Assembly: GCF_007752135.1 (NCBI RefSeq)
Contig: NZ_CP036298.1
Location: 4,340,001 to 4,404,000, forward strand
Length of the DNA: 64,000 bases
Reading direction: 5' to 3'
Source: Aureliella helgolandensis
Lineage (GTDB): Bacteria > Planctomycetota > Planctomycetia > Pirellulales > Pirellulaceae
Shown here: one piece after another, positions 9,655-58,625 of the stretch
Layout: every line of letters begins with the position of its first letter
How positions within the stretch are numbered: the stretch's first letter is position 1
Made by a program: the position numbers and the translations under genes
Notes under the pieces: generated by a model
Database searches by the model: none
Told to the model about the DNA's origin: nothing
The model's input: the letters and a program-made list of their open reading frames with translations, nothing else

Positions 9655-10680
9655 ATGGCGTTATTGATCCTGAGAGTCTGCTTCATTTGTGTAGCAGCGG
9701 GCATCGCGACCCTTTTGCTCCGCATTGATATCAGCGGACCAGCATATATCCCTTACCTGGTGATTTTTGGCTCGGTCCTGATGTCTCTGGGCGTGATTGC
9801 CGTAGACATTTTCACGCCTCGCAAGCAAATTGAGGTCATTTCGGGCGTCTACTTCGGCTTGCTCGTCGGCGTGCTAATGACCTACATCTTGTATCTGGCC
9901 TTAGCTCCCTTGATTCCCGCGAACAGCCCCTACACGGCCCCCACGTTACTACTCATGGGGTCCGTCTTGTGCTACGCCTGCACCAGCCTTCTGTTGCAGA
10001 CCAAAGACGACTTTCGCTTCGTCATTCCCTACGTCGAATTTGCTCGGGATTTGAAGGGGTTACGCCCCATTGTGTTGGATACCAGCGCCATTATCGATGG
10101 TCGGTTGGCCGAATTCGCCGAAACCAACATCATCGAAAGTCAGCTGGTCATGCCCGGCTTCGTGCTGGCTGAGTTGCAAGCGATCGCCGACAGCAACGAC
10201 CGTCTACGGCGTGCTCGGGGACGAAGAGGACTGGATATTCTGAACAGACTGCGCACGCAGCCTAACATCGAGTTCCAAATCTACGATCGTGAGCTACCCG
10301 AATTTGCGGGGCAACCGGTCGACATGAAACTAGTGATTCTTGCCAAGCACCTGGAAGGCAAAATCATTACGGGGGACTTCAACCTGAATAAGGTGGCCAA
10401 AGTCCATAACGTGGCGGTCGTCAATCTGAATGAGATTGCCGCCTCCCTGCGGCCCCAATTCTTGCCGGGCGAGGCATTTGAAGTGCGCGTGGTCAAAGCG
10501 GGCGAAGGACCAGAGCAGGGGATTGGATACCTCGATGATGGAACCATGGTAGTCATCGAAGGGGGGAGGCACCGCATCAATGCCACTCTGCCCGTCGTGG
10601 TAACCAGCACGCTACAGACTCAAGCGGGCCGCATGTTGTTCGCCAAAGTCGATGATGCGGCCATTCGTTCGGGCGCGTAA
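9655..10680 (+). CDS. Membrane-anchored PIN-TRAM domain protein (YacL-like)
   Basis: 341 residues from ATG 9655. Four hydrophobic segments occupy residues ~1-125, then a PIN-like nuclease domain and a C-terminal TRAM domain (~270-335). PIN acidic residues are seen in VLDTSAIIDGR near residue 140, in LAELQ, and in ITGDFNLNKVAKV; the basic stretch RRARGRRGLD is also typical of the family. The TRAM part has GEGPEQGIGYLDDGTMVVIEG (in two halves), an OB-like RNA-binding fold also found in TrmA/MiaB-type proteins. The architecture matches B. subtilis YacL, a membrane PIN/TRAM protein of unknown substrate. Endoribonuclease activity is inferred from the domain only. It stands alone, divergent from the purA side. 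Confidence 0.9.
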   Translation: MALLILRVCFICVAAGIATLLLRIDISGPAYIPYLVIFGSVLMSLGVIAVDIFTPRKQIEVISGVYFGLLVGVLMTYILYLALAPLIPANSPYTAPTLLLMGSVLCYACTSLLLQTKDDFRFVIPYVEFARDLKGLRPIVLDTSAIIDGRLAEFAETNIIESQLVMPGFVLAELQAIADSNDRLRRARGRRGLDILNRLRTQPNIEFQIYDRELPEFAGQPVDMKLVILAKHLEGKIITGDFNLNKVAKVHNVAVVNLNEIAASLRPQFLPGEAFEVRVVKAGEGPEQGIGYLDDGTMVVIEGGRHRINATLPVVVTSTLQTQAGRMLFAKVDDAAIRSGA

Positions 10681-10932
10681 CGCACCGGTGCCCTTCTACC
10701 CCCCAGTGCTGGGAAAAACACTGCATCTCACGTCTTTTGGGGTATAGGCCGGACGAGGCTGCGCCGGTTCGCGCACCTCGACATTCACATTTCGCGTATT
10801 AGTTTACGAAATTGCGAGTTCCGCTTTGACTCTCCGTTAGTGCAATCTATTGTTCAGCGGTTCAAATTTTTCGAACTTGCCTCCTTCCTACAGAATCCGC
10901 GGGCGATTCACTAACACCTGCGAACGACCGTT

Positions 10933-11307
10933 ATGAATAACGCCAACTCCTGCTCTCCTAACGCTGAGTCCATCGATTTCGACGCACTGCTCGCGAGATG
11001 CATGGGGCGGTCCGATCTGATGGAGCGCATTCTGAAGAGTTTTCATAAATCGGCATCGCACGAAATTGAGACGTTGATGATTGCCATTGAGACGTCGAAT
11101 CTCGCTGCGGTTCAAAGTGGTTCCCACAAGCTCAAGGGGACCGCATTAACCGCTTCCGCGAACAAGCTGGCCCAATTGGCCAATGAACTCTATTCGACCG
11201 CGAATAGCGATATGACATTTGAATTCCCGGATTTGTCGGCCCAACTCACCCAGGAATTCGAATCCATCGAAAAACTCCTTGCCATGCGAGAAATGGGGGC
11301 CGTCTAG
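10933..11307 (+). CDS. Stand-alone histidine phosphotransfer (Hpt) protein
   Basis: 124 residues from ATG 10933. The whole protein is one Hpt domain: an acidic amphipathic helix bundle with the phosphorylation motif HKLKGTA (consensus HxxKG, His about residue 66) followed by the usual ASANKLAQLANEL helix. Hpt proteins relay phosphate between receiver domains. The stop codon shares one base with the GTG start of the next gene (TAGTG), so the two proteins are probably made together. The hybrid kinase at 13903-19803 ends in a receiver and has no Hpt of its own, which makes it the obvious candidate donor. Confidence 0.9.
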   Translation: MNNANSCSPNAESIDFDALLARCMGRSDLMERILKSFHKSASHEIETLMIAIETSNLAAVQSGSHKLKGTALTASANKLAQLANELYSTANSDMTFEFPDLSAQLTQEFESIEKLLAMREMGAV

Positions 11308-12407
11308 TGCATCAACAAAATGACCAACGCGCAACCGTGCTCGTGGTTGATGATGACATTTGCTGTAGTGAGCTGCTGTGCGGGGTCCTTCGCGAAATGG
11401 GAGTGCATACCATCAGCGCTCAAAGTGGCGCTGAGGCATACGAACTCATTTGCCAAGGTGAATGCCGTATCGTCATTTCCGACTGGCAGATGCCAGAGAT
11501 GACTGGCATTGAATTGTGCGAAAAAGTACGCCGCCGACAACTTGGCGACTACGTCTACTTCATGCTGCTGACCTCGCTACACGGCCGAACCAATTTGGTG
11601 CGTGGTTTGCAAGCGGGTGCTGACGACTTCATCACCAAACCTTTTGATCCCTATGAGCTGCACGTACGTCTGCGAGTGGCAGAACGCATCGTTTCGTTAG
11701 AGAACCGCGGTCTGATCGTCTTTTCATTAGCCAAATTGGCTGAGTCTAGGGACCCCGAGACCGGAGCTCACCTGGAGCGGATGCGGGAGTACTCTCGAGT
11801 CTTGGCCCAGTATTTAGCCACGCAACCAAAATACGAACACATCATCGATGCGGACTTCATTCGCGCGATCTACCTAACCAGCCCTCTCCATGATATTGGT
11901 AAGGTCGGTATACCGGATAACATTCTGCTCAAACCGGGACGCTTGACTTCGGAAGAATTTGAGATCATGAAGCAGCACACGACGATCGGCTGCAATACGC
12001 TCGATGCTGCCTATGCGGCCTGCCCATCGGCAGAATACTTGAGACTCGCACGAGACATCGCCAACTCTCATCACGAAAAATACGACGGATCAGGCTATCC
12101 CAACGGATTGAAGGGCACTGAGATTCCGTTGTGTGGCCGGATCGTGGCACTGGCAGATGTGTACGACGCCCTGACGACGAAACGGGTCTACAAGGATGCG
12201 TTTAGCCACGAAGCGGCTAAGAAGATTATCATCGAGGGACTCGGCAGCCATTTCGACCCCGATGTCGTCGATGCTTTCCTTCACAAGGAAGACCGCTTTA
12301 TTCAAATCAAGAATTGCCTCGACGGCGAAGATCCCTTGCCTGTCAACGCAATCCCTGTCCCTATGTCGGTCAGCCCACCTGTGGCGATGGCTGGCCTTTC
12401 AACCTAA
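11307..12407 (+). CDS. Response regulator with HD-GYP output domain
   Basis: 366 residues from GTG 11307, overlapping the Hpt stop by one base. Receiver at ~5-130: acidic pocket VVDDD, phosphoacceptor Asp in IVISDWQMPEMTG, Thr/Ser in LLTS, Lys in ITKPFD. HD-GYP domain at ~145-340: HLERMREYS, the metal site HDIGKVGIPDNILLKPG, HTTIG, and the defining HHEKYDGSGYPNGL followed by ALADVYDALT. HD-GYP proteins of this type degrade c-di-GMP. All motif residues expected for activity are present. With the Hpt partner it forms the likely output end of a phosphorelay. The C-terminal ~25 residues are proline-rich and not part of the domain. Confidence 0.95.
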   Translation: MHQQNDQRATVLVVDDDICCSELLCGVLREMGVHTISAQSGAEAYELICQGECRIVISDWQMPEMTGIELCEKVRRRQLGDYVYFMLLTSLHGRTNLVRGLQAGADDFITKPFDPYELHVRLRVAERIVSLENRGLIVFSLAKLAESRDPETGAHLERMREYSRVLAQYLATQPKYEHIIDADFIRAIYLTSPLHDIGKVGIPDNILLKPGRLTSEEFEIMKQHTTIGCNTLDAAYAACPSAEYLRLARDIANSHHEKYDGSGYPNGLKGTEIPLCGRIVALADVYDALTTKRVYKDAFSHEAAKKIIIEGLGSHFDPDVVDAFLHKEDRFIQIKNCLDGEDPLPVNAIPVPMSVSPPVAMAGLST

Positions 12408-12495
12408 CTCACCAGCCTTCCACTACGTTTCGCATCCACGGGATGCCGTCGCTCCCAAGATGCGAAACGGTGCAGGCAATAGCGCGCTAGACGGC

Positions 12496-13650
12496 TCAAG
12501 AAGCCTCGGTCGCCCCTTCGCTACTAGCGGTGGACGACTGCACTTTGGTACCTGCTGTACCAGGTGCGCGGCGACGTCGCGGCTGAGCTTCGGCAGAGTC
12601 GAGACGAACAATTGCACCTGGGACTTTGCGCGCTACGAAATTTACGATGATCTGGGTAGCATCGCGCACTGTGTCCATCGCGTGCACATTGAATCCAGCT
12701 TGTTCGTAGAGTCGCAAGACGTCCTGCAGAGTTCGCTGGTAAAAGAACCAGTCCAAGTGCCATTGATAGGGAGTCTGGTCGTATTGCTCAGTGTCCTTGA
12801 AAGCAATGTACAAAACACCCTGCTCGTTGAGAGTCTCCCCCCAGCCATGTAGCAATCCCACCAAGTGCTCATCGGTGAGGTAGTCGCAAAGACCGACACT
12901 ATAGATCACATCAAATTTGCCGAAATGGCGAATCGTGTTCTCAGCCGACCGCGTGCGCAACGCGTTGTAGCGATTCATCGACATCGTTGTCGAGTCAGGA
13001 AGCTGCGGTTTCACGTGCTGACTGACATAGTCGATTGCTTGCGGATCATTGTCCAATGCGACAACCTCGACTCGCTGAGAGCGGGCGGCGGGCCACTGCA
13101 AAAACTCGCGACAGGGACCACTGGCGATATCAAGTATGCGCACCGGTGCGTCGCCATCGCGACGTCCCAGCTCGGTCAAGAGAAAGCTACGAACCGATGC
13201 CATTCTGGCGCGCACGGCTCGGGCCAAAGGTAGATCGAGGATGCACAAATCAATGTAGCCACCCAATCCACAGGCTGGCGTCGCTTCCTCGTAGAGCTTT
13301 AGCAACATTTCGTAATCGCCCGCAAAACCACTGGGCTTCGTGCGGGAGCGATGTGCAATCCAGCTCTGCTCCATCCAATGGCCCGTTCGATCGCGAAACA
13401 GCTTCTGTGCTTCCAACACTTGCGGTTGGGTAATGCCTTCCGTGGTCTCAAATTCTCGGCAAGCGGCTTGCGATTTTTCAAACGCGGCCAAAACCTGCTG
13501 GTGCCAACGATCACCGTGAACCGGAACTTGATCCGCGGGAATCTCTTTTTCTAGTTGCGAAAGGGAGCCAGCAAACTCCTCAATACTACTAAGAAATGTC
13601 GTGAGAGCGCTCGTATAGCTTGGTGCAGAACTGGTTTGAGAAGCTGCCAT
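12496..13650 (-). CDS. SAM-dependent methyltransferase, PhcB-like
   Basis: 384 residues from ATG 13650 with GAGGA six bases upstream. An N-terminal helical part (~1-165) is followed by a class I methyltransferase fold. Motif I is VRILDIASGPCREF (about residue 170), motif II is VVALDNDPQAIDYV, and FDVIYSVGLCDYL is the post-I/IV region. Before motif I is KPSGFAGDYEML, which matches my recollection of the family named after PhcB, the enzyme that makes the methyl ester of a 3-hydroxy fatty acid used as a quorum signal by Ralstonia. That family assignment is from memory and needs a profile search. The C-terminal ~40 residues are Arg/Ser/Thr-rich and probably disordered. It lies between the HD-GYP regulator (convergent, 88 bp) and the giant hybrid kinase (divergent, 252 bp). 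Confidence 0.8.
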   Translation of the reverse strand: MAASQTSSAPSYTSALTTFLSSIEEFAGSLSQLEKEIPADQVPVHGDRWHQQVLAAFEKSQAACREFETTEGITQPQVLEAQKLFRDRTGHWMEQSWIAHRSRTKPSGFAGDYEMLLKLYEEATPACGLGGYIDLCILDLPLARAVRARMASVRSFLLTELGRRDGDAPVRILDIASGPCREFLQWPAARSQRVEVVALDNDPQAIDYVSQHVKPQLPDSTTMSMNRYNALRTRSAENTIRHFGKFDVIYSVGLCDYLTDEHLVGLLHGWGETLNEQGVLYIAFKDTEQYDQTPYQWHLDWFFYQRTLQDVLRLYEQAGFNVHAMDTVRDATQIIVNFVARKVPGAIVRLDSAEAQPRRRRAPGTAGTKVQSSTASSEGATEAS

Positions 13651-13873
13651 CAGTAGTCCTCTGAAAGGAAAAGACGAAGTTCATTAAGCGAAACCGATGT
13701 TTACTTAGAGCTTCCGTAGGAATTTTCATTCCTTCGTTCAAAGGGGCAAGCGAATTATTACAACAATCTACGCCGCCACCAGTACACAGACCGAATTCCT
13801 CGCGCGTTTCTCTTTTTGTGTCCTAGACTGTACCGTGCATCTAGATAGAAACCCCATCAGTTCAGGGGGAGGC

Positions 13874-13906
13874 ATGCCTGCTATCCTCGAAGGGCAAGAG
13901 AATTGA
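13874..13906 (+). other. Possible 10-codon leader ORF overlapping the hybrid-kinase start
   Basis: ATG 13874 follows a purine-rich GGGGGAGGC and runs ten codons to TGA 13904-13906, which overlaps the TTG start codon of the kinase (TTGA). This is the geometry of translational coupling. It may simply be chance, because the TTG has its own AAGGG nine to ten bases upstream. Confidence 0.3.
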
Positions 13907-16900
13907 ATACGCATTGGTTTCAGCAACTTGTCATTGACGAACCGCTTCCAGTATTGGAGGGAGGTCGTTATCTCTATCGGGAGACGCTACACGCAGATCC
14001 AAAGAAGCAAACGCTGCGATGTACGGATTCCCGCACTCAAGCAGATTTGGTGGTCAGAGCGTTTAATACGCAGCTCTTGCCGGCAGGTGCCAAAACACTT
14101 TTGCTCCACGAAGCGGAGGTCGGATCCCAAGTTAGTCCTTCCGGTGTATTACCCATCCTCGAATATGGCTACCAAGAGGACATTCTCTACATCGTCTTAC
14201 CGTTCGCCTATGGCATTCGCCTCGACCAGCAATTCCAGCAAGAACGACTCACGCTTTCCGCCTGCCTGAGGCTGGGGATTCAGTTATTTCAGTCGCTCGC
14301 CGACCTCCACAATGCGGGTGCGATTCACCGCAATATTAGGCCATCGAACATCTTCATTCGCGACACCACCGCGGAGAAGATTTCGATTATTGGATTGGGG
14401 GATATCAAGCGGTTTAACCAGGAGAAGCTCTACGGACAGCACGCGGCCAGCAGCGTCATGTACATGTCTCCCGAGGAAACCGGCTCGATCGACTACGATG
14501 TTGGGCCCTCATCCGATCTTTACTCCGCCGGTGTACTGCTCTTCCAGTGCCTAACTGGCGTTCCTCCGTTTGCCTCAGGTAGCGTCAGTTCGGTACTCTT
14601 GGAGCATTTGACCGCGAGCGTTCCCGATATCTGCAGTCTGACTCCCAACGCCCCCCGGGAATTGAATGAGGTAGTCCAGCGTCTGCTGCACAAGGATCCC
14701 CGAGATCGCTATCAAACCGCGACTGCTGTCGCCACAGACCTCCGCGCTATTGAACATGCGCTTGGACAAATGCACCCGTCACGTATTGTCGTTGGAGTCA
14801 CCGACCGCCGGCGGTCGTTGACGGTCCCCGCCTTCGTCAATCGCGATATAGGGTTACCACAATTGTCCCAGGCGCTAGATGAAACCAACGAGGGGCAAGG
14901 TTGCTTGGTCTACGTTGAAGGAGTTTCTGGCAGCGGAAAAAGCCGCTTACTCATCGAGACGGCCAAGCTCGCTCGAAGTCGGCGGCAACTCGTCTTACGA
15001 GGACAGTGCGTCAATCGTGTGGGGAATTCGCCGTATGCAGTGTTTGATGGAATTGTCGATGGATTGCAAAATGCTATTCAAGAAAGCCCCGCTGCCCTGG
15101 ACGAGATACGCAAGCAACTTGGTGATTTAAGCGAAACCTTGGTGGCAGCTTTACCGCGACTGAGAGAGATGCTGGCAGTAGCAGCCAGCGGAGTAGTTGC
15201 TCCTGAGGCATTCGGTGAAAACCGAACGGTCGAAGCTCTGCAGCGATTCCTGGAGTGCGTCGGGGAGGTTTTCGGGCCGACCATCGTAATGTTGGACGAT
15301 TGCCAGTGGTGTGATGCCCTGACCCTGCGCGTCATTCAGAGATGGCGCGAAAAATCGGAACGCGTCGCTCTAAAGACGACATTGATCGCTTCTTTCCGAC
15401 ACGAAGAGGTCGACGAGACGCACCTGTTGAGAAATCAGTCTCCGCGTCACCACATCGCTTTGCAACCATTCTCCGATGAAGAAGTCGGAAAGTTGCTTGA
15501 GTCGATGGCGGGCAGCTTGCCACGCGAAGTATTGCGTACCGTGCAACGCCTGGCGCAGGGCAGTCCCTTCATGGCTACAGCCGTGTTGCGTGGCCTCGTT
15601 GAAGCATCCGCTCTAGTGCCGTTGGAAACGGGTTGGCAGATTCGAGCTGCAGCCTTCGCGGATCTCCAATCCTCGGATCAAGCTGCTTCCATTTTGGCTA
15701 AGCGGATCGACCTCCTACCTAAGGACACCCTACGCGTCCTGTCTATCGGTGCCCTCCTGGGTAAGGAGTTTTGTCTCGATATCAGCATGGCATTGGCTGA
15801 GGTCACTGCGGCGGAAATTTTCGAAGCCTTGCGGCAGGCTCGCGAGCGTCAGCTTGTCTGGGCAAAGTCTGACGGAGCTAGCTTTACGTTCGTTCATGAC
15901 CAGATCCGCGCCGCCCTGCAACGCTGGCTGCCTGACGACGAAAAGCGGCCCCTTCACCACCGGGCTGCCGAGTACCTCGAGGAACATTCACCAGACCATT
16001 TTGCAGAAATCGCCTATCACTTCGATCAAGCGGGGGAACCGCAACGGGCTATAGAGTTTGCGATACGTGCCGCCGAACAGGCTCGTCGACAGTTTTCGCT
16101 GGAGTCTGCCGAGCAACAGTATCTGATAGCCGTCCGTAGCGCAACAACCGCCGACTTACAGACTCGCTTCAATATCTCTTCAGGCCTGGGTACGACATTG
16201 ATGTTGCGTGGCAAGTATGCCGACGCCGCCGTCTACTTAGCACAGGCTGCCGAATTTGCCGACGGCACTTTCGCGAAAGCTCAGATCCAGACGCAGCAAG
16301 CAGAACTGAATTTTAAGCGGGGCGATATGGATCAGGCGACCGTTGCCTTTGAGCATGCCCTAGGCTCGTTGGGATGTTTTGTTCCACAGAATGCATTAGC
16401 TGTGTTCAGCGCACTCTGCTTTGAGGCTTGCGTGCAAATCCTGCACACGTTGCTTCCACGATGGTTTGTACACCGTATCAAACGGGAGCCAGATGCGTCC
16501 ACCACGCTTGCAATCGGGCTCTACAGTAAACTAACCCACGGCTATTGGTTTTGCCGCACAAAGGGGCAGTGTTTGTGGGCGCATTTGCGAGGCCTCAATC
16601 TAGCCGAGCGCTATGCACCGACCCCAGAATTGGCACATGCGTACTCGGAACATGCCCCCGTGGTGAGCCTGATCCCACTGTTTCACCGTGCCGTTACCTA
16701 TGCTGAAAAGTCCTTGGCTCTGCGCAAGCACTTTCAAGATGTCTGGGGAGAGGGGCAAACGCTTACCTTCTACAGCTGCGTTTTGTACTATGCGTCCGAT
16801 TTTCGAAAATGTGTCGAAAAGGGACGCGAGGCGGTACGGCTACTGGAGATGACTGGCGACTACTGGCAAGTGCACATTGCCAGATATCAAGTTGCTGCCT

Positions 16901-19803
16901 CCCTCTACCATCTCGGCGATTTTGAGGGCGCGTTGAACGAAGTCCGTCTAAATTATCGCTCAGGTACAGAACTGGGTGACGAACAGGCCTCCGGTATCAT
17001 CTTTGATGTGTGGGCACGTGTCTTCCGGACACCGCTCCCCACCGAGTTACTGGAAGTTGAACTGCAACGCTCGCGGCAAGATCGTCAGGGCTCCGTGCAA
17101 GTTCTCATTGCTGCCGGCATCCATGACGTCTATCAACATCAATGGCCGACCGCAATCGAGTCTCTCGAGCAGGCCTACGCACTGGCTCGCAAGGCTGGGA
17201 TCCTCAACGCATACACACTACCAGCTTCGGCTTGGTTGGCTACCGCCTACCGTCGACAGGCTGCCGAGGTGCAGACGTATCAACCGCGACAATGCAAGCA
17301 CCTTCTTCACAAAGCCAAGACCGCAGCGCGACGTGCAATTCGGCAATCCAAGCTCTGTAGGAATGACCTGCCGCGCGCCTATCGCGAACTGGCCTTGGCC
17401 TATGCGATGCAAGGCAATCATCAGCGGATGCTACGCTTCCTGGATAAAAGTGTGCTGACCGCCCGCCAACATCATGCTGAGTATGAGCTCGCTCTATCGC
17501 TGTACTACCGCGGAACACTCACCAATTCAGTTACCTCATACAACGGTCAAGCGGATCTATCCGCAGCCAAGGCATTGTTCGAATCTTTAGACGCACGCCA
17601 ACCCAAAGAGTCCAGCGCTACTCACGAGCTGGAGCAGAGCCTATCGTTGGTCGATCGATTCGATCGCGTCCTACACTCCGGACGAAGTATCGCTTCGGCT
17701 CTGTCGGCGGATCGAATCTTTGCAGAGGCCAAAACAGCCGCCGTGCGTTTGCTGCGCGGCGATGAATGCTACTTCATCGAGCTCGACGACGAACAGTGTC
17801 CGATCAATCAGTCTGGGTACAGTTTGGACTCGGAAATGCTGGGCTTCGTGCAATCTGCGATTGATGCGGGCCAAGCGATCTCGATCTCAAACGATTCTTC
17901 CACCGAAGATTCCAGTACCGCGACCGGTGATCGCTCTCGACTCTGTGTCCCGATTCGCAAGCGAGATTCCGTCGTTGCCTGCCTCTACGTTGCGCACCAT
18001 CAAGTGCGTAATTTGTTCGGTGAGGATGAGCTGCGACTCGCCGATTTTGTTGCGGCGATTACGGGTGCTGCTCTGGAGAATGCAGCTGGCTTCTATGAGC
18101 TCGAACAACTCAATGCAACCTTGGAGCAGCGAGTGGCCGATGGTACCGCAGTGGCACGTGCTCGTGCCGACGACCTGGCGAAGTCCAATACGCAGCTGGA
18201 GCGTACAACCCGCGAGCTGCTCGTCGTCCAGGAACAACTTCAGGACGCTAAGGAAACCGCCGAATTTGCCAACGATTCCAAGAGTCGATTCTTGGCTACG
18301 ATGAGCCATGAAATTCGAACCCCAATGAACGGAATCCTCGGGATGACAGAACTAGCGTTGCGTTCAGAATTGAACAACAAACAGCGGAATTGCCTCACAA
18401 TCGTGAAACAGTCTGGCAACGCGCTGCTGGGACTGCTCAACGACATCCTCGACCTATCTAAGGTTGAGGCGGGGAAAATGGAATTGGAGAATATCCAGTT
18501 CGAACCGACCGCAACCATTGTGGATGCGATCAAATTGCTTTCAATCAATGCCGCGAACAAACAAGTCGAATTGGTTTGCGATCTGTCACCAGAATTGCCG
18601 CAATCGCTTTACGGGGATCCGTGCCGCTTGAGACAGATCATTGTCAACTTGGTTGGAAATGCAATCAAATTCACTGATGTTGGAGAGGTCGTGGTACGAG
18701 CACGATTGACCACGGATTCATCCGACCGCTCCTGCCTCCAGCTCTCAGTACGCGACACCGGCCCCGGCATTCCTCCAGCCAAGCATCAAGCGATCTTTGA
18801 GTCCTTCCAGCAAGACGACTCCTCCACAACACGCCGCTACGGCGGCACGGGACTTGGACTGACGATTTCTGCCCAATTGGTAGCTCTCATGGAAGGCAAA
18901 ATTTGGGTCGACAGTGAACTAGGGCAGGGCAGCACGTTCCACGTGCAGCTGCCTCTCTCTCAGGCCGTCCCAGCGGAATCCTTCACCCACTCTCTAGCAG
19001 ACACATCCATTGCCATCGTGACTTCCGTATTTTCAGCGGCGGAAAGCTATCGAGATACGCTCCAGTTTGCAGGTGCCCATTGCACCCATCTCACTGACCT
19101 AGAACCCAATGTAACAGCGCTATCCGCCGCAGCGAACTCGAACGCCCGAAGGTCGATCATCCTGTTTGACCTCGGATTCCAGAGTTCAGAATGGCCATCC
19201 ACCGATTCGATTCGAGCGCTTCAACAAGCTCAGGTTGAAGTATTCGTACTACTGCCGGTCAACGCGCCAGAAGAGGCAACGCTCAAATTAGGCATCCCCT
19301 ATGAGAACTGCTTAGCAAAACCGACCTCTGCCAAAGAATTGGTTGAAGCACTAACCACATCATCTTCCGAGGATATCGAGAGCAACGTGGCGACAAACTC
19401 ACCCGCATCAACCGCAGGACTCAGTATCCTTCTGGTGGATGACGCTGAGATCAATCAAGAGGTCGCACAGGGGGTCCTGGAAATCTTTGGACACCGATGT
19501 ACCGTCGCATCCTCTGGACAGGAGGCAGTAGATGCAAACCACCAAGATTCGTTTGATGTCGTCCTGATGGATCTCGAAATGCCCGGCATGGATGGTCTTC
19601 AGGCCACGCGTGAGATCCGTAAAACAGATAACGGCCCTCATCGCACTCCGATCATCGCAATGACTGCTCACGTTTTGGAAGGAACCGAAATCAAGTGTCT
19701 GGAAGCGGGCATGGACGCCTGTCTCACCAAACCCATCCAGCCAGAGACGCTGCAAGCCATGCTTTTGCATTGGACAACAGGCAACCTCCAACCGGCCTAT
19801 TGA
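13903..19803 (+). CDS. Giant pseudokinase-STAND ATPase-TPR-GAF-histidine kinase-receiver hybrid
   Basis: 1966 residues from TTG 13903, the only possible start after the in-frame stop at 13846. Domains: a Ser/Thr-kinase-like fold (~20-285); an AAA/STAND NTPase with Walker A GVSGSGKS (~340) and Walker [10 protein letters not shown] (~462); a helical TPR-like region (~710-1190); GAF (~1250-1390); a coiled coil (~1395-1460); HisKA with [10 protein letters not shown] (His ~1468); HATPase with [14 protein letters not shown] and GGTGLGL; a degenerate receiver; and a true receiver with [13 protein letters not shown] (Asp ~1890) and Lys in LTKP. The kinase-like domain has Arg in place of the beta3 Lys (LVVRAF), HRN for HRD and GLG for DFG, so it is probably catalytically dead. 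The overall plan resembles cyanobacterial HstK-type sensors. No membrane segment is seen. It lacks Hpt; a free Hpt gene is 2.6 kb upstream. Confidence 0.95.
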
Positions 19804-46690: not shown

Positions 46691-48199
46691 ATGGGCCGCC
46701 GCGCTCAACGAACACCACGTGGAAAAAGCGGCTCCGCGTCCTCCCAACTGCGGAACACGCCGAAACCATTTGATTGGAAACGCATTGGATTGGCGGTACT
46801 GTCGGTCCTACTATTGCTCGGCATTCTGGCCGTCCTGTGGCCTCTACCCGAAGAAGCTGGGCCCAATATTCAACGACCCAATTTCCAACAGTCCAGTCCG
46901 CGCCAGCCAAAATCCCAACAGTCGAGAAGCAACGAACAGGCACCGCTGCCGCCAACGGAGTCGATCGACAGCTTAGAACGACAACTGGGACTCCACGCTG
47001 CCTCCCCCGACACGGCAGAGAGTGCACTCGATTTTGGGCAGCTGGAACAGGAGATCACGGCCCAAGCAGATTTGGTGGTCAAGGAGTACCCTGCGGACTT
47101 CCAAGCCTGGCACCTAGCCGGCAAAATTTACGGGAAGTACAAGCAATCAGAGCCAGCTGAATTGCGATTCAAGAAAGCCCTAGAGATCGCCCCGAATGAT
47201 TTGCAGGTGCGGCAGGACCTAGCGGATGTTTTGTTGCAAGTTGGCCGCAACGCGGACGCCGTCGCGATACTCTCCGAGGCCACGACTCTCGTCCCCAATT
47301 TTGAAACTCAGCCAGATTTTGTTCATGCACTCGCTGAATCGCTCATGGGGGTTGGACGATTGGATGAAGCGCGTCAATTACTCACGACCATGCTGGAGGA
47401 CTCCCCCGATTCCCCCCATCACTGGATTAGCTTGGGAAAGGTCGAATTGCAGAAGCAAGAGTTCGCACTTGCTGAAGCCAGCTTCCATCGAGCCTTGGCA
47501 CTCGACGAAACTAGTGAGGCAGCTTGGCTTGCGCTTTGTCAAACGCTTGCTTTTCAAAGGAAAACCGAGGAGGCCGCTGCAGCCCGAAAGCAATTGGAGG
47601 CACTGCGCCAGACGTCCTTGTCGGAACGCGAGAGCTTCGAAGAGGAACACCTTCTTTCGTTGAGGCGTTTTGCTGCGAGCAGCTTTCGTTCGCTCGCGGT
47701 TATTCGCCAAAATCATGGAGATAGTAAACAAGCCCAACTGGGATTGGAGCGTTCCCTAGCGCTGGACCCCTCCAATTTGCTCACCCTTTCTCATCTAATG
47801 GTTTTTCACCGCAATGGAGGTGAGTTTCCCGCCGCTGCAGATATAGCTCGCCGCATCCTTAAGCTGCAGCCTGATCTCTTTTCTCACTATGTGAATCTGG
47901 CCAACCTAAGCATGGAGCAGTCAGATCCTCACACTGCAGAACTAGCGCTGCGGCTGGCTGCCCAACGTGAACTGGCAGACGGGCAGGCGCAACTTTCACT
48001 CGCCCAGTTTATGCTAATGCTAAAGCGTCCCGTGGAGGCTATCGCGCCCGCCCGATCGGCCGTGCAGGAGATGGGGTCTCTCGACGCACGCCTAGTGTTA
48101 GTTTCAGCCCTGAATGCCAGCGGCCGAACTGCCGAAGCGCAAGCGGAACTAGACGACGCGAGGATGCGTTTCCCCCGCGATCCACGCCTAAGCCCTTAA
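46691..48199 (+). CDS. Membrane-anchored TPR protein
   Basis: 502 residues from ATG 46691. A basic Arg/Lys/Ser-rich N-terminus is followed by one transmembrane helix (~32-52, LAVLSVLLLLGILAVLW) and a Ser/Gln-rich linker; the rest is made of tetratricopeptide repeats, e.g. YKQSEPAELRFKKALEIAPND, FALAEASFHRALALDETSEA, SKQAQLGLERSLALDPSN. By topology the repeats should be extracytoplasmic (positive-inside rule). It precedes a CRTAC1-type protein by 113 bp; TPR and CRTAC1 genes frequently neighbour each other in planctomycetes. Partner and function are unknown. Confidence 0.9.
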   Translation: MGRRAQRTPRGKSGSASSQLRNTPKPFDWKRIGLAVLSVLLLLGILAVLWPLPEEAGPNIQRPNFQQSSPRQPKSQQSRSNEQAPLPPTESIDSLERQLGLHAASPDTAESALDFGQLEQEITAQADLVVKEYPADFQAWHLAGKIYGKYKQSEPAELRFKKALEIAPNDLQVRQDLADVLLQVGRNADAVAILSEATTLVPNFETQPDFVHALAESLMGVGRLDEARQLLTTMLEDSPDSPHHWISLGKVELQKQEFALAEASFHRALALDETSEAAWLALCQTLAFQRKTEEAAAARKQLEALRQTSLSERESFEEEHLLSLRRFAASSFRSLAVIRQNHGDSKQAQLGLERSLALDPSNLLTLSHLMVFHRNGGEFPAAADIARRILKLQPDLFSHYVNLANLSMEQSDPHTAELALRLAAQRELADGQAQLSLAQFMLMLKRPVEAIAPARSAVQEMGSLDARLVLVSALNASGRTAEAQAELDDARMRFPRDPRLSP

Positions 48200-48312
48200 G
48201 TTCGCAATCTCAGTTCGCTCACCGCTGCTTGATCGACTGCACCGTCTCGACTGCTTCCCAGCTTATTCGGCATCGCTTGCCGAGGACTGTCCCACTAGAG
48301 AATTTTCAAATC

Positions 48313-52763: not shown

Positions 52764-55700
52764 TCAGGTTTCGGCTTTTGCCAGTATCACGAATTCTTGC
52801 AGCTCGGAAATCGCCTCCGAGATTTCCTCCCATAGGGACTCCAGCAACGCTTGTTCACCTTTGGCGGCGATCTCGGTCAGTCGATCCAGCCCGACCGTCC
52901 CGCCAGAGCCCTTAATCTGGTGTAGGTGCTTGGCGATCGTGTCTCGATCCCTCGCCTTGGTAGCTTCCAGCAGCAGGGGTAGCGCTGTGTCAATTTCTTC
53001 AACCAAGTCATTGGCGAACTTGTTCATCCATTCGTCCTCGAACAGGTCAGCAGCGTTCACTTCTACTGTTTCCAACACGGGCGTTGGCGAGGCCGCTGGC
53101 CGCCTCTCAGCTCTACCCGTCGGTGGCTCCACTGTGCCGGCATGCAAACGCGAATTTTCCACCACCGGTGCGCATTTTCCGATAACTCTACCAACCGTGT
53201 TGGCCTCAACGATCCCCAACAAGGCATTCAATTCGAACGGCTTGGTTAAGTACTCGGAACATCCGGCGGCTCGGCAACGCGACTCGTCGCCAACCAACGC
53301 GTTGGCGGTCAGGGCTACCACAGGTTTCTGAAAACCATGCTCGCGGAGAATACGGACGGTTGAGTATCCATCCAACACGGGCATCTGCATGTCCAGCAGG
53401 ACAATGTCGAACGCCTCTTGGTCAGCCAACAATTGCTCGACAGCCTCCTGCCCATTGCAAGCGGTCATCACCGTTGCACCCGAATCGGTAAGCAACAAGC
53501 TCATCAATCTTCGATTCGATTCGCCATCATCCACCACCAGCACGCGAACTTCTCTGAGATCGCATTTAAGGAAGCGACTCACGCCACGCGTTCGCGCGAT
53601 TGCCAGGGCATCCTCAGGGCTGACTAGGCCCCCATCCTCAGCGCCAACCACCGGCAGACTGAAAATCATCCTTGTGCCTACTTGCGTTTCGCTTTCGACG
53701 TCGATCTTCCCTCCTAACGCTTCTGCCAACCGTTTGCTGATGGAGAGTCCCAAGCCGGTGCCACCGTACTTACGAGTTGTTGAAACATCAGCCTGCTTGA
53801 AAGGCTCAAAGACAGACTCCAGCTGGTCAGCGGTCATACCGATGCCAGTGTCTTCAACGAAGATCTGCAGTCGTTCCGGTGAGCGCTCCGGTCCTTGGGT
53901 TCGTACGATCAGGGTAACGCCTCCCTGCTCGGTAAATTTAACGGCATTGCTGACCAGGTTCGTCAAAATCTGACGTAAGCGAGTAGAATCGCTGATCAGC
54001 GTTGCCGGTACACTCGTTTCGACTTCAATTCCTAAAGCAATGTTTTTCTGGATCGCCTGGGATTGCAACGAAGCCACCACATCACCGACGATCATCACCG
54101 GATTGCATGTAGCGTATTCGGTGACAATTTTGTCCGCTTCGATCTTGGAAATATCGAGGATATCATTGAGCAAATTCAGGAGGTGATGCGCATTGGAATG
54201 CACCGTCTGAAGATGCGAGGTGCGTTCCGCGTCGTCGGCAACGACCCCACGCAGAATCAGGTCCGTAAATCCTAAAATCCCGGTGATGGGTGTCCGTATT
54301 TCATGACTCATCCTGGCTAGAAAATCGCTCTTCGCAGCGTTGGCTTCCTCGGCCGCATTTTTTGCCAACTGCAGCTTCTCTTTCGTCGCTGACAATTGAT
54401 TCGCTGTTCGCTCCAGCTCTCGAGAGTGACGCACGACCGAATCGGTACGCTCTTGCACCTTGCGTTCCAAATTTTGGTTCAAGTCGTGCAATTGGCAGAA
54501 ACTATCCGCCTTTTCCAGGGCTGCACCGGCGGCCGATGCCAAGTAGTCTGCAATTCGAATTTCGTCGTCACCGAAAATTCCAGAGAATCGCCGATTAGCG
54601 ACATATAGAAGCGCAACGGTCTTGTCATTAACATCGATCGGGCAACACAGAAACGTGCCTTTGGACGTGGACGCCGTAAGATTCGAAGCCACCGTCTCGA
54701 CATCTCGGACGACGGTCTGCCTCGTTGAACTGGCTTCCTCGACGAGGCTCAGGTCGAACGCTTGACCTGGCGGAATGGTGGTCGTCTGACTGGCGGCATT
54801 GTCCAGCACCAGCAGAACCTGTTCACCACGCAAGATTTTGGTCGCGGCCGTTCGCACCTCATGATAGATCTCTTCGGGCATGGTGCTGGTTGCAATGCGA
54901 CGGCCCGAAGCAAGCAGGGTATCGAAGCGATTGAACAGCGAGAGGGAGCCCCCCTCATTGACGTTATGTTGGTCTTTCCCCAGCTGCGAAAGTCGCATTT
55001 GAGCTTGCTCGAGAGCGTCCTGATCGATCGGCCAACCCAACTCGCGTCCGTATTCCGCATGCAGGACGCGTGTCTCCGCTTCTTCGACATCCGCCTTGTG
55101 AGCCCTGGCCAGGTCCAAACTGCGTTGGAACATAGCTCTTGATTTTCGAGACTGGCCGCAAATTGCCAGCACGGCAGCATACTCGCGCAAGGCATGAGGT
55201 CGATCATTCGTAAACTGACGAGCAACCGCAACAGCCTGCAGTGCGCAACGGAGTAGTTGTTTCACCCACTTTCGCCGCTCGGAAAGACTGCGCAAATCTG
55301 CAGTCTCGAGCTTACGGCGTAGCGCGGTACACAACCAAGTATAGGACGGACTGACGTACGAGTTGCTAACCTTGGTCTTACGTGCCACGGAGACCGCTTC
55401 TGCAAAGGACGTTGCCGCCTCCTCAAACTGATGCTGAAAAAAGTCATGGACGCCCTTGGCAATCAAAACTTGGCAGGTTCGTTGGGCGTCAATCACTTCG
55501 CGCGACAGTTCCAGGTCGATCACTTCGATCGGCATGTTCCCGCGCGCCGCGCGGACCCAAACGTCAATGATATTCCCCGTACCCTGAAAATCTCCACGTT
55601 GCAGTGCCGACTGGTAATTCACCTGGGCCAGTTCGATCGCTTCGTCCAATTGACCTATTCGGTAGAGCGAGGCCGCTAACTGATACCGTGCGATATGCAC

Positions 55701-58625
55701 TTCCCAGTAGTCGCCGGTGCGTTCCAAAATCTCAACAGCTTGACGCCCCTGCTCAATGCACGCTTCATACCTTGAGAACGAGAAGTGAAGGATGCTGAGG
55801 AAATTCCGGGTTTGGCCCTGCCCCCAAGCGTCGCCCAGCGCCTTGCGAATTTCCAAGGAGCGTTTTCCATATTCCATTCCGCGTTTCTCCCAACGAATCA
55901 GCGTCATCACGGGCGCATGTTCCGAGTAGGATTGGGCAAGGAATCTTGTTGGTTGGAAGCTCTCGGCTGCATTCATTCCACGCAGGTGTGCCCACAGCGT
56001 GAAGTACTTGGTACGGGTAAACCAATAGGCGTGTGCAATCTTGCTGTACAGCGAGAGTGACATTTGTTCTTGTTCGCTAGGAACTTGATCGCAGCGGCCG
56101 CTGAATCTGGGAAACAGCGATTTGCGAAACTGCCGTATCCCTTCCACGGCCAGGCTCCAGCCCAATTGCAACCGATTCTTACAAATGGGCTGATGGAGTC
56201 GCTGCAATGATGCTTCGAAACATTCAACGGCTTGGTCTTTGTTCCCCCGCTTGAAATAGAGTTCGCCTCGTTTCATTAGCAGATGGGCTTGATCCATCTC
56301 CGAACCGACACTGCCCTCTGCTTGATCGAGCCATTTTTCTGCAGCATCATACTCTCCCTGCAACAGCAAGACTTCACTCATCATCGTTTCGATAAAGTGT
56401 TGCTGTTCGGCAGTTGCATAGCGCAGGGCGCGCGCGGCGATTTCTAACTGCTCTTGAGCGCTCACCAACGAAAAACTGCTGCGCGCAATTTTTGCCGCAT
56501 GGATCGCATTCGGCAAAGCCAGTTCGTGCAGGTACGCAGCATCGAAATGGTACGCCAGCTTGAAAAATTCGCTCGGCTCATTCGCTCCCAAGTACCGTCC
56601 GATCTGTCCGTGCATTTTTGTGATGGCGTTGCTCGACAAATCTGCCAGGATTGCTTCCCGTATCTTGTCGTGCACGAAGGACAACACGCGATCCGGTCGG
56701 CTCCAAACCAATCGCTGGGTGCGGGCGGGCTGAATTGCGGCGTAGGCATCTGCAATACTGATTCCCACCAATTCCGCTGCGATATCTAAGCTAAACTCGC
56801 GACCAATGACCGCCGCGACGGCCAGAATATTTCGCGTATTGTCAGGCAAACGGGACAATCGATCAACTAGGATTTCGCTTGCACCTTCCGCGGTTTGAAA
56901 GGTTGAAAGCCGGTGCTGGTCGACTTCCCATTCCCGATCGACGCTGCGCAACGCTCGCGATTCCACCAGCCCACGCACCACCGCGGCTGCCATGAACGGA
57001 CTTCCCTCCGCAAAACGTTGAACGACTTCAATCGCTGTATCGGGAAGATGCCCAGCCATCGATTCGGCCAACTGCCTGACTGCATGGTCGCTCAGCGGAC
57101 CAAGTGACAGTTTCTCAGAAACGTTGATATCCCTTCGCAGCTTACCTGCGATACCTTCATTCGGACGCGCAACCGCAAAAAGACAGCAGTGCTCGGATGG
57201 TTCCTCAGAGATAGCGACTAATATTCGGAATGACTTATCATCCATCCACTGACAATCGTCCAAGGTGATCATCACGCTACGATCCGCCGTCCCTAAGCCG
57301 GTGAATAGAGTCCGAAACGCAGAGATCACCCGTCCCTGGCCCAATTCATCGGGCCCCGATAACGTGTTAATGGGCCATCCAAAGATTTTGGCAAGTTGTG
57401 GCATCGCCGTCGCAACTTCCTGACGATAGTCCTCCATCCGCTGCATGGTCCGGACCAGCAGGGCTGGCTCGTTCGCGATATGCTTTACCAATTGGTCCAA
57501 CGCCTGAAGCCACACGGCTGCTGGCTCTTGGGCGCTATGCTCAGTCGCTCGGCCACGCAGTACTAGGTAGCGTTTTCGAGATGCAACGCGTGCGACTTCA
57601 TTGAGTAAACGCGTCTTCCCCATTCCAGACTCGCTCATCAACAAGATCTTCTTCGATCCACCCACGAGCACTAAGTCGAGAGTGTGCTCCAACATATTGA
57701 GTTGCATATCGCGACCAACAAATGCGGGATCAATAATCGCTGAACGCTGGTCGGCTCCGCCGACTACAAAATCATCGAAACTCTGGTTTCCCTTCAGCAC
57801 CTGGGTAATCACTTGAACGTCATGCAGCGCCGCCCGAGCGCTTTGATAGCGGTCCCGTGGCTCCTTCGATATCAATCGGTCAATGAACTGAAGGATTGCA
57901 TCCGGCGTGTCGTCAGGGTATCGAGTGACATCCGGATCTGCCGTCATGTGTTGGTAGAGGATCTCACTAACATCACCCTCAAAGGCAGTTTTCCCCGTCA
58001 GGGCTGCATACAAGACAAATCCGACAGAATAGAGATCCGAGGAATCGCAAATATCGTGATCGATGATTCCCGACAACTCGGGCGACGTGTAGGACGCGCA
58101 CTCCCGCGCAAGCTGATCATCCTTACCGAACACTTCGGGGCACCACAGTGGGACGTAACCACACAGAACGGAATGCCCGTCACTCCTCATAATAATATTC
58201 GACGGACGAATGTCCCGATGAATACACCCCAGTCGATGGATATGATCTAGCCCATTCAGCAGATCATCGGCTAACACCATCACTTCGTCAGCCGTGAGTG
58301 GACTTTTCTGAAACCTCGATGAGAGCGAATCCCCCTCGACAAAGGGATAGACGACCCGTAGGTTCTCTTCCCCTACTTCGTAGTCGATGGGATGCGCATA
58401 GGTATCGCAGCGGATACTGGATGTCAGACGCGCTTCAGTCTTGAACCGGTCAAACCCTCGTTCGCGAAAAACCCTCTTGGGAACTTCGCGCAGAATGACC
58501 TTCCCCCCCATGTTAAGATCTTCGGCAAGGAAGCAACGGACGATCGATGCATTCGATAGTTCTTTGATAATGCGGTAGCCATCGGCGCTCTGGCCCACGC
58601 TATTACCATTTTCCGTTGAACTCAC
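52764..58625 (-). CDS. Giant pseudokinase-STAND ATPase-TPR-GAF-histidine kinase-receiver-Hpt hybrid
   Basis: 1953 residues from GTG 58625 with GAGG five bases upstream. Paralogue of the protein at 13903-19803, with the same order: kinase-like (~15-280), STAND NTPase with Walker A SESGMGKT (~332) and Walker B MITLDDCQW (~457), TPR-like helices (~690-1190), GAF (~1240-1375), coiled coil, HisKA SHEIRTPITG (His ~1440), HATPase with NAVKFT, DTGIGM, GGTGLGL, receiver with VLLDMQMPVLDG (Asp ~1744), and additionally a C-terminal Hpt domain with HLHQIKGSGG (~1901). In the kinase-like part HRD is intact (~135), but the beta3 Lys is Arg (VILREV) and DFG is replaced by CGY (~153), so phosphotransfer by this domain is unlikely. 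No membrane helix. Its relay could run wholly within one polypeptide to Hpt. Confidence 0.95.
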   Translation of the reverse strand: MSSTENGNSVGQSADGYRIIKELSNASIVRCFLAEDLNMGGKVILREVPKRVFRERGFDRFKTEARLTSSIRCDTYAHPIDYEVGEENLRVVYPFVEGDSLSSRFQKSPLTADEVMVLADDLLNGLDHIHRLGCIHRDIRPSNIIMRSDGHSVLCGYVPLWCPEVFGKDDQLARECASYTSPELSGIIDHDICDSSDLYSVGFVLYAALTGKTAFEGDVSEILYQHMTADPDVTRYPDDTPDAILQFIDRLISKEPRDRYQSARAALHDVQVITQVLKGNQSFDDFVVGGADQRSAIIDPAFVGRDMQLNMLEHTLDLVLVGGSKKILLMSESGMGKTRLLNEVARVASRKRYLVLRGRATEHSAQEPAAVWLQALDQLVKHIANEPALLVRTMQRMEDYRQEVATAMPQLAKIFGWPINTLSGPDELGQGRVISAFRTLFTGLGTADRSVMITLDDCQWMDDKSFRILVAISEEPSEHCCLFAVARPNEGIAGKLRRDINVSEKLSLGPLSDHAVRQLAESMAGHLPDTAIEVVQRFAEGSPFMAAAVVRGLVESRALRSVDREWEVDQHRLSTFQTAEGASEILVDRLSRLPDNTRNILAVAAVIGREFSLDIAAELVGISIADAYAAIQPARTQRLVWSRPDRVLSFVHDKIREAILADLSSNAITKMHGQIGRYLGANEPSEFFKLAYHFDAAYLHELALPNAIHAAKIARSSFSLVSAQEQLEIAARALRYATAEQQHFIETMMSEVLLLQGEYDAAEKWLDQAEGSVGSEMDQAHLLMKRGELYFKRGNKDQAVECFEASLQRLHQPICKNRLQLGWSLAVEGIRQFRKSLFPRFSGRCDQVPSEQEQMSLSLYSKIAHAYWFTRTKYFTLWAHLRGMNAAESFQPTRFLAQSYSEHAPVMTLIRWEKRGMEYGKRSLEIRKALGDAWGQGQTRNFLSILHFSFSRYEACIEQGRQAVEILERTGDYWEVHIARYQLAASLYRIGQLDEAIELAQVNYQSALQRGDFQGTGNIIDVWVRAARGNMPIEVIDLELSREVIDAQRTCQVLIAKGVHDFFQHQFEEAATSFAEAVSVARKTKVSNSYVSPSYTWLCTALRRKLETADLRSLSERRKWVKQLLRCALQAVAVARQFTNDRPHALREYAAVLAICGQSRKSRAMFQRSLDLARAHKADVEEAETRVLHAEYGRELGWPIDQDALEQAQMRLSQLGKDQHNVNEGGSLSLFNRFDTLLASGRRIATSTMPEEIYHEVRTAATKILRGEQVLLVLDNAASQTTTIPPGQAFDLSLVEEASSTRQTVVRDVETVASNLTASTSKGTFLCCPIDVNDKTVALLYVANRRFSGIFGDDEIRIADYLASAAGAALEKADSFCQLHDLNQNLERKVQERTDSVVRHSRELERTANQLSATKEKLQLAKNAAEEANAAKSDFLARMSHEIRTPITGILGFTDLILRGVVADDAERTSHLQTVHSNAHHLLNLLNDILDISKIEADKIVTEYATCNPVMIVGDVVASLQSQAIQKNIALGIEVETSVPATLISDSTRLRQILTNLVSNAVKFTEQGGVTLIVRTQGPERSPERLQIFVEDTGIGMTADQLESVFEPFKQADVSTTRKYGGTGLGLSISKRLAEALGGKIDVESETQVGTRMIFSLPVVGAEDGGLVSPEDALAIARTRGVSRFLKCDLREVRVLVVDDGESNRRLMSLLLTDSGATVMTACNGQEAVEQLLADQEAFDIVLLDMQMPVLDGYSTVRILREHGFQKPVVALTANALVGDESRCRAAGCSEYLTKPFELNALLGIVEANTVGRVIGKCAPVVENSRLHAGTVEPPTGRAERRPAASPTPVLETVEVNAADLFEDEWMNKFANDLVEEIDTALPLLLEATKARDRDTIAKHLHQIKGSGGTVGLDRLTEIAAKGEQALLESLWEEISEAISELQEFVILAKAET

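Follow-up and report, generated by a model that had tools for sequence, protein, structure and literature searches.

What does a hybrid histidine kinase without a phosphotransfer domain of its own listen to, and where does its phosphate go? The question is raised by a 64,000-nucleotide stretch of the Aureliella helgolandensis genome (contig NZ_CP036298.1, positions 4,340,001–4,404,000; hereafter the window), which encodes the hybrid kinase P0004, a free histidine phosphotransfer (Hpt) protein, P0002, and a response regulator, P0003, that joins a receiver (REC) to an HD-GYP domain. The original prediction had read these three as a split phosphorelay that controls hydrolysis of cyclic di-GMP (c-di-GMP). 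We found that the module is larger than the relay first reported: the genes for a methyltransferase, P0005, and for a channel of the FadL family belong to a conserved five-gene set (Table 1). The His-Asp-His-Asp anatomy and its linkage to the HD-GYP regulator stood up; the input side, with its conserved methyltransferase and FadL genes, had been overlooked. These two genes suggest, by their family membership, a fatty-acid-type chemical input, and we lean, with a little more than even confidence, towards the view that the five genes form a PhcB/Rpf-like signalling module for an acyl methyl-ester-type signal.

The gene arrangement is more than a chance one, for it recurs both among relatives and across a sample of the whole class. 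In a kinase-anchored sample of 60 relatives, including A. helgolandensis itself, seven candidates were scored per genome, with a cut-off of E ≤ 1e-150 for the kinase. Because a greedy open reading frame (ORF) caller overlooked some real genes (at loci L065 and L069, among others), the counts rest on a profile scan of all stop-to-stop frames. The kinase was found in 19 of the 60 genomes, 17 times as the P0004 type and twice (G007 and G020) as a second type, called type II, by best match. At the 5′ end of the P0004-type kinase, a divergent P0005-family methyltransferase stands in 12/17 genomes (11 strong matches, one of which is cut by a contig end, and a weak one at L048); in three others (L041, L044 and L047) the slot is filled by a gene with thioesterase-like and LCM parts (TE-LCM), and L046 has a weak relative on the 3′ side of the kinase. 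In both type II genomes, too, a TE-LCM gene diverges from the kinase. The neighbourhood comparison that had been proposed as a check on the relay bore it out, with Hpt and REC-HD-GYP genes within 5 kb of the kinase in 12/17 genomes; L045 has the Hpt alone, L034 and L036 have neither, and two of the kinases end at contig ends (L037 and that of G029, the latter split over two contigs). FadL lies within the stretch examined in 11/17. Seen from the methyltransferase, matches below 1e-50 occur in 14/60 relatives, 12 of them next to a kinase of this kind and in divergent orientation; the remaining two are convergent with the kinase (G048) or on another contig (G050).

Eight loci on repeat contigs (L071, L072, L073, L075, L076, L077, L079 and L100) were excluded from neighbourhood, residue and tree counts. 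Among the other 24 loci of the series L074–L102, 17 carry a kinase at 600 bits or more; L074 and L089 have kinase fragments only, L085, L097 and L099 are short or reach a contig end, the 3-kb contig of L101 bears a different frame with a kinase profile, and L096 is plainly negative. The named sources of loci include metagenome-assembled genomes of Pirellulaceae, Pirellulales and Planctomycetaceae, Candidatus Laterigemmans baculatus JC640 (L078) and Thalassoglobus neptunius KOR42 (L087), the last having all five genes.

The class-wide sample comprised 248 genomes, in which the methyltransferase was scored at E ≤ 1e-60; four of its positive genomes (A. helgolandensis, G035, G053 and G054) are also in the 60-relative sample. 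The methyltransferase was found in 19/248 genomes, at 20 places, where the kinase is adjacent in 19, Hpt and REC-HD-GYP are in the neighbourhood in 15, and FadL in 14. The sole place without the kinase (L191) is a second methyltransferase copy in G098. Gene order at L188 and L189 is the same as in the window, and in seven species of one genus (L176–L182) FadL, Hpt and REC-HD-GYP lie on one strand, followed by the divergent methyltransferase and kinase; at L186, the methyltransferase lies 3′ of the kinase on the same strand and is not divergent. Four of these places (L183, L186, L190 and L191) are on contigs already among the named loci, as judged by a shared 60-mer, and were kept in the class count.

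Table 1. Positions of the proposed signalling genes and of a paralogous kinase in the window
Feature	Position	Strand	Evidence
P0002, free Hpt protein, 124 amino acids (aa), phospho-acceptor His65	10933..11307	+	Pfam Hpt 1.5e-7
P0003, REC-HD-GYP response regulator, 366 aa, Asp59 phospho-acceptor	11307..12407	+	Pfam Response_reg 7e-23, HD_5 6e-30
P0005, class I S-adenosylmethionine methyltransferase, 384 aa, putative-PhcB homologue, candidate signal synthase	12496..13650	-	profile homology, model
P0004, hybrid kinase, 1966 aa, no Hpt, candidate receptor	13903..19803	+	Pfam
FadL/TodX-family outer-membrane channel, 424 aa	19797..21071	-	Pfam Toluene_X 9e-27
Paralogous kinase with its own C-terminal Hpt, 1953 aa, called type II	52764..58625	-	Pfam

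The relay proteins themselves proved to be as predicted, with ORFs, strands and coordinates unchanged and Pfam in agreement, down to the TAGTG at 11305–11309 in which the Hpt stop codon and the HD-GYP start have one base in common. The methyltransferase gene sits between the REC-HD-GYP and kinase genes on the minus strand, divergent from the kinase gene, and therefore the kinase and the Hpt-HD-GYP pair are not one operon. The FadL gene is convergent with the kinase gene and overlaps its 3′ end by 7 nucleotides. Promoter and terminator scans of 10650–14100 gave a result close to that for shuffled sequence.

Pfam matched P0004 to Pkinase, AAA_16, GAF, HisKA, HATPase_c and a single C-terminal Response_reg, and matched no Hpt domain in it. 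The order is pseudokinase, AAA_16/STAND ATPase, TPR-like region, GAF, HisKA, HATPase, a receiver-like stretch and the canonical receiver. The earlier account of a kinase that ends in a receiver stands, and the further receiver-like stretch (approximately 1700–1835), read by eye and uncalled by Pfam, had escaped it; its Asp slot (Asp1756) holds Asp in 27/30 aligned rows and its Lys is kept in 30/30. The residue counts cover 30 rows for the kinase and 31 each for Hpt and REC-HD-GYP, with the type II loci (L067 and L068) and any kinase shorter than 1700 aa left out. The motifs said to be present in HisKA, HATPase, receiver, Hpt and HD-GYP were found, and the relay residues are invariant: His1469 of HisKA in 30/30 rows, Asp1890 of the C-terminal receiver in 28/28 rows having a residue there, His65 of the Hpt protein in 31/31 and Asp59 of the REC-HD-GYP receiver in 31/31. 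The N/G box residues checked are invariant save one row at N1586, and the Walker A Lys is kept in 29/30. In P0003, which has HD at 195–196 and HHExxDGxGYP at 255–265, residues His195, Asp196, His255, His256, Glu257, Gly263, Tyr264 and Pro265 are the same in 31/31 rows, the exceptions being Asp260 (28 Asp, 3 Asn) and Glu151 (24 Glu, 7 Asp). Judged by their sequences, P0002, P0003 and P0004 carry all the intact residues of a His-Asp-His-Asp phosphorelay, and P0003 has the motif set predicted for an HD-GYP c-di-GMP phosphodiesterase.

The N-terminal kinase domain of P0004, labelled a pseudokinase from the start, is by its motifs degenerate and does not qualify as an active Ser/Thr kinase: the HRD Asp slot is Asn144, with Asp in just 3/29 rows having a residue there, and the DFG Asp slot is Gly164, with Asp in 16/29. 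We take P0004 to be mostly soluble, because its peak 19-residue hydropathy (1.71 at 833–851) is only borderline. Its kinase-STAND-GAF-HisKA layout is presumably shared with Ser/Thr-kinase-AAA-GAF-histidine kinases such as cyanobacterial Hstk; P0004 differs from that type by its degenerate N-terminal kinase, a following receiver and linkage to methyltransferase, FadL and Hpt-HD-GYP genes. The type II kinase of the window, a second giant pseudokinase/STAND/GAF hybrid kinase, is a paralogue of P0004 (38% identity) that carries its own Hpt (Pfam). Its relatives in G020 and G007 adjoin the TE-LCM gene, of which the A. helgolandensis genome yielded no match at 1e-20.

Given the conserved linkage, the invariant phospho-sites, the paralogue with its own Hpt and the separate branch of regulators that follow fused Hpt domains, the output side is naturally read as a route from the kinase by way of the Hpt protein to REC-HD-GYP. 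In a tree of 47 REC-HD-GYP rows (46 different, as L061 and L174 represent one gene), a script labelled 30 as behind a free Hpt, 9 as behind a fused-Hpt kinase and 8 as behind no Hpt visible to it; L063 is labelled free by the length cut-off alone, its Hpt lying in a 485-aa frame. All nine fused-Hpt rows fall in one 16-row branch (9 fused, 6 none, 1 labelled free) with support 100/100; the window's row lies outside that branch, together with the other 29 free-Hpt rows. Among the five fused kinases scanned with Pfam (L053 not counted), three (L052, L055 and L058) read Amt-PAS-HK-REC-REC-Hpt, with HK the histidine kinase and Amt the ammonium transporter, and have the REC-HD-GYP gene directly downstream; that of L060 reads PAS-HK-REC-REC-Hpt. 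The three Amt loci likely encode an ammonium-to-c-di-GMP relay. They share with the window a related REC-HD-GYP, in their case directly 3′ of an Hpt-bearing hybrid kinase, and differ in the ammonium-transporter sensor, the fused Hpt and the methyltransferases, none of the P0005 or TE-LCM type being matched. Elsewhere in the A. helgolandensis genome (L173, G000:C1:385000-400000), a fused-Hpt kinase lies just 5′ of an HD-GYP frame, accompanied by another frame with a receiver profile. Comparative genomics thus supports well the route from the kinase through the free Hpt to REC-HD-GYP, with phosphotransfer itself inferred from the anatomy.

On the input side, profile comparison (hhalign) of the P0005-family set, A1, with a set of six homologues headed by a putative PhcB gave a probability of 100%, E = 2e-57 and 317 aligned columns. 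The comparison set consisted of proteins from Paraburkholderia graminis, Pseudanabaena and Rhizobium and three other distant homologues; P0005 alone matched the P. graminis protein with 23% identity (E = 3e-6). The P. graminis locus (L150) reads methyltransferase (468 aa), histidine kinase (445 aa), response regulator (134 aa) and response regulator (344 aa), the methyltransferase being first, and by gene order and length alone its methyltransferase gene is a putative phcB. One source (PMC8578825) gives the order phcB-phcS-phcR-phcQ, with 464–468 aa for PhcB, 368–374 aa for PhcR and 336–337 aa for PhcQ, so that the lengths at L150 are like those of PhcB and PhcQ. According to the same source, the product of PhcB is methyl 3-hydroxymyristate or palmitate and PhcS is its sensor; another source (PMC6989110) describes mutated PhcB and PhcQ residues as conserved in Ralstonia, Cupriavidus and Paraburkholderia homologues. 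Enzymes of the PhcB type thus produce the methyl-ester quorum signal of Ralstonia. NCBIfam had no name for the Paraburkholderia methyltransferase, no PhcB was named among the best 15 of 30 matches of a plasmid search with it, and searching solved structures by sequence with A1 turned up nothing informative. An AlphaFold2 model of P0005 (predicted local distance difference test score, 86) matched class I methyltransferases best among PDB entries, and many of these act on small molecules or polyketides.

Distant P0005 homologues also lie near signalling genes more often than control ORFs do. An ORF matching a two-component profile was found within 300 bp in 22/47 of their loci, versus 30/405 control ORFs, and within 2 kb in 27/47 versus 75/405; mycobacterial loci among the 47 have no such neighbours. 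At five Omnitrophota loci (L103, L104, L109, L138 and L139), a PhcB-like methyltransferase stands beside a kinase-profile frame and receivers, with HD-GYP-profile frames near; at L103, a kinase of 7TM-GAF layout and an HD-GYP protein are among the neighbours. These are possible related signalling sets in another phylum. At L152, on Rhizobium etli p42e, a distant P0005 homologue is divergent from an EAL-domain gene, another link to c-di-GMP.

In the TE-LCM proteins, which take the methyltransferase slot elsewhere, Pfam recognizes a carboxyl-methyltransferase domain of the LCM family (in three of them at 5e-25 to 1e-27), and structures of LCM1 were matched by the LCM-type enzyme. Profile comparison of TE-LCM with A1 showed no homology. 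A TE-LCM match below 1e-100 occurs in 6/60 relatives, five times beside a P0004- or type II-type kinase. Because unrelated methyltransferases swap in one slot, one of them with an acyl-thioester-type domain, in genomes that have a hydrophobic channel, the exchange suggests a methylated acyl product.

The channel gene matches PF03349 with 94 bits (cut-off 29.7), and no second match at E ≤ 1e-5 came up in the 8.44-Mb genome; by eye, its protein has a start resembling a signal peptide and an NPA segment. FadL occurs in 19/19 relatives with the kinase and 12/41 without it (Fisher 8e-8), and in the class sample in 17/19 methyltransferase genomes and 64/229 others (Fisher 1.5e-7), both values being descriptive only, as related genomes are not independent. 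G107 was scored as lacking FadL in the Fisher test, PF03349 at 1e-10 having missed a gene that our own FadL profile found in L177, and the channel gene is not always inside the gene cluster. Because FadL is reported to mediate uptake of long-chain acyl-homoserine lactone (AHL) signals in rhizobia (PMC9938287), a role as signal gate is plausible.

Taken as a signalling module, the five genes would work as follows. The PhcB-like methyltransferase P0005 would make a diffusible acyl methyl-ester-type signal, which, being hydrophobic, would cross the outer membrane through FadL and be detected inside the cell by the predicted mostly soluble pseudokinase-STAND-TPR-GAF hybrid kinase. Phosphate would then pass from His1469 to Asp1890, to His65 of the Hpt protein and to Asp59 of REC-HD-GYP, as the anatomy and gene linkage suggest, and the phosphorylated regulator would change c-di-GMP hydrolysis.

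Several observations weigh against this proposal. For P0005, NCBIfam and Pfam gave weak generic class I matches only, and no curated family names it PhcB; its fold matches have modest TM-scores (0.3–0.45 by query), which say nothing about the substrate. The third gene of L150, at 134 aa, is shorter than PhcR, and 25/47 distant methyltransferase relatives have no two-component-profile ORF within 300 bp. The N-terminal thioesterase-like match of TE-LCM is weak (YiiD_C 2e-6 at best, DUF4442 below cut-off), and in the sixth TE-LCM genome (G015) no such kinase was found in 18 kb around the gene. One of the 17 kinase genomes (L043) has no methyltransferase near the kinase; L185, L187 and L190 have methyltransferase and kinase with no Hpt-HD-GYP in 19 kb. 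Because G009 and G002 carry the Hpt-HD-GYP pair on another contig than the methyltransferase-kinase pair, the output link looks looser than that between methyltransferase and kinase. The samples are also phylogenetically clustered (7/19 class-sample genomes belong to one genus), so the p-values overstate independence.

Other explanations account for parts of the same evidence. The functional unit might be the phosphorelay only, with an external nutrient (such as long-chain fatty acids or hydrocarbons) entering via FadL and the methyltransferase modifying or detoxifying it. FadL-family channels do take in hydrophobic compounds generally, the relay anatomy would be identical, and the related regulators beside ammonium-transporter-domain kinases at three of the five fused kinases scanned have a nutrient input. 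We nevertheless regard this as unlikely: outside the module itself and the other hybrid kinases, no family recurs in more than five of the compared loci (one family without an assigned identity reaches five), a methyltransferase of some type adjoins the kinase in 16/17 genomes versus 12 for Hpt-HD-GYP and 11 for FadL, and the excess of two-component neighbours within 300 bp, and within 2 kb, of distant methyltransferase homologues speaks against a nutrient-modifying enzyme too. The tight, divergent linkage of the methyltransferase gene to the kinase gene would suit a CheR-like regulator that methylates the kinase, the Hpt or another protein and so tunes adaptation of the relay, and protein carboxyl methyltransferases exist among LCM-type enzymes. 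The swap for a thioesterase-like/LCM fusion points instead to an acyl substrate, weak as its thioesterase part is, many of the listed fold matches are small-molecule or polyketide methyltransferases, and the P0005 family is homologous to the putative-PhcB set; this explanation appears quite improbable to us.

We give still less credence to the idea that the kinase signals mainly elsewhere and that Hpt-REC-HD-GYP is a separate unit of other Hpt-less hybrid kinases, linked to it by chance. It could draw on the separate contigs of G009 and G002 and on the shortage of Hpt domains in the A. helgolandensis genome, where 35 HisKA matches at E ≤ 1e-6 stand against only 8 Hpt matches, two of them on short frames, P0002 being one. 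The other short-frame Hpt, however, sits between two further kinases (L172), linkage within 5 kb is kept in 12 of the 17 kinase genomes, and the pair is in the neighbourhood at 15/20 places of the class sample.

The favoured module can be set beside known systems. It is like the PhcBSRQ quorum-sensing system of Ralstonia, Cupriavidus and Paraburkholderia in having a methyltransferase gene, here one homologous by profile to a putative PhcB, beside a histidine kinase gene, together with receiver proteins. It differs in its pseudokinase-STAND-GAF hybrid kinase, in its Hpt and REC-HD-GYP output, in the presence of FadL and in gene order, which is not phcB-phcS-phcR-phcQ, the methyltransferase and kinase being divergent. 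Among the window genes Pfam-scanned between 6.9 and 23.0 kb there is no PhcQ-like or LysR gene. The Rpf/diffusible signal factor system (RpfF, RpfC and RpfG) shares a fatty-acid-type signal, here a proposed one, a hybrid kinase and a phosphorelay, here a predicted one, to an RpfG-like REC-HD-GYP output; in the window the Hpt is a separate protein, the kinase is without the RpfC membrane sensor, and a methyltransferase is in the place of the synthase. No RpfF-like crotonase was found among the window genes Pfam-scanned (6.9–23.0 kb), to which that search was confined. In the open-licence literature we found no paper joining PhcB with planctomycetes, none joining 3-hydroxypalmitic acid methyl ester, planctomycetes and methyltransferase, and none on PhcB homologues together with fatty acid methyl ester. 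In the parts available of the quorum-sensing literature on Planctomycetes, no such system is described among the matches listed, and AHL-based sensing is reported in an anammox planctomycete.

Two further features of the window lie outside the module. Upstream of the Hpt gene (9655–10680, plus strand) is a gene for a membrane PIN-domain protein with a TRAM match below threshold, which has no shared family among the 25 neighbourhood clusters listed across the compared loci. At 46691–50043 (plus strand) lies a tandem pair, a gene for a TPR protein followed by one for an FG-GAP/ASPIC-UnbV protein.

Planctomycetes that carry the module may thus sense a fatty-acid-type chemical signal and adjust c-di-GMP. 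More tentatively, and with rather less than even confidence, we propose that planctomycetes have an acyl methyl-ester quorum sensing of their own, in which a PhcB-like or TE-LCM synthase would make the signal, FadL would let it in, and a cytoplasmic pseudokinase-STAND kinase would pass it through a free Hpt to c-di-GMP. If so, one could name for planctomycetes the enzyme that makes a signal, the channel that admits it, the receptor and the output. They would be connected with both PhcB and Rpf signalling, and a family of pseudokinase-STAND-GAF kinases that had no known input would become testable receptors.

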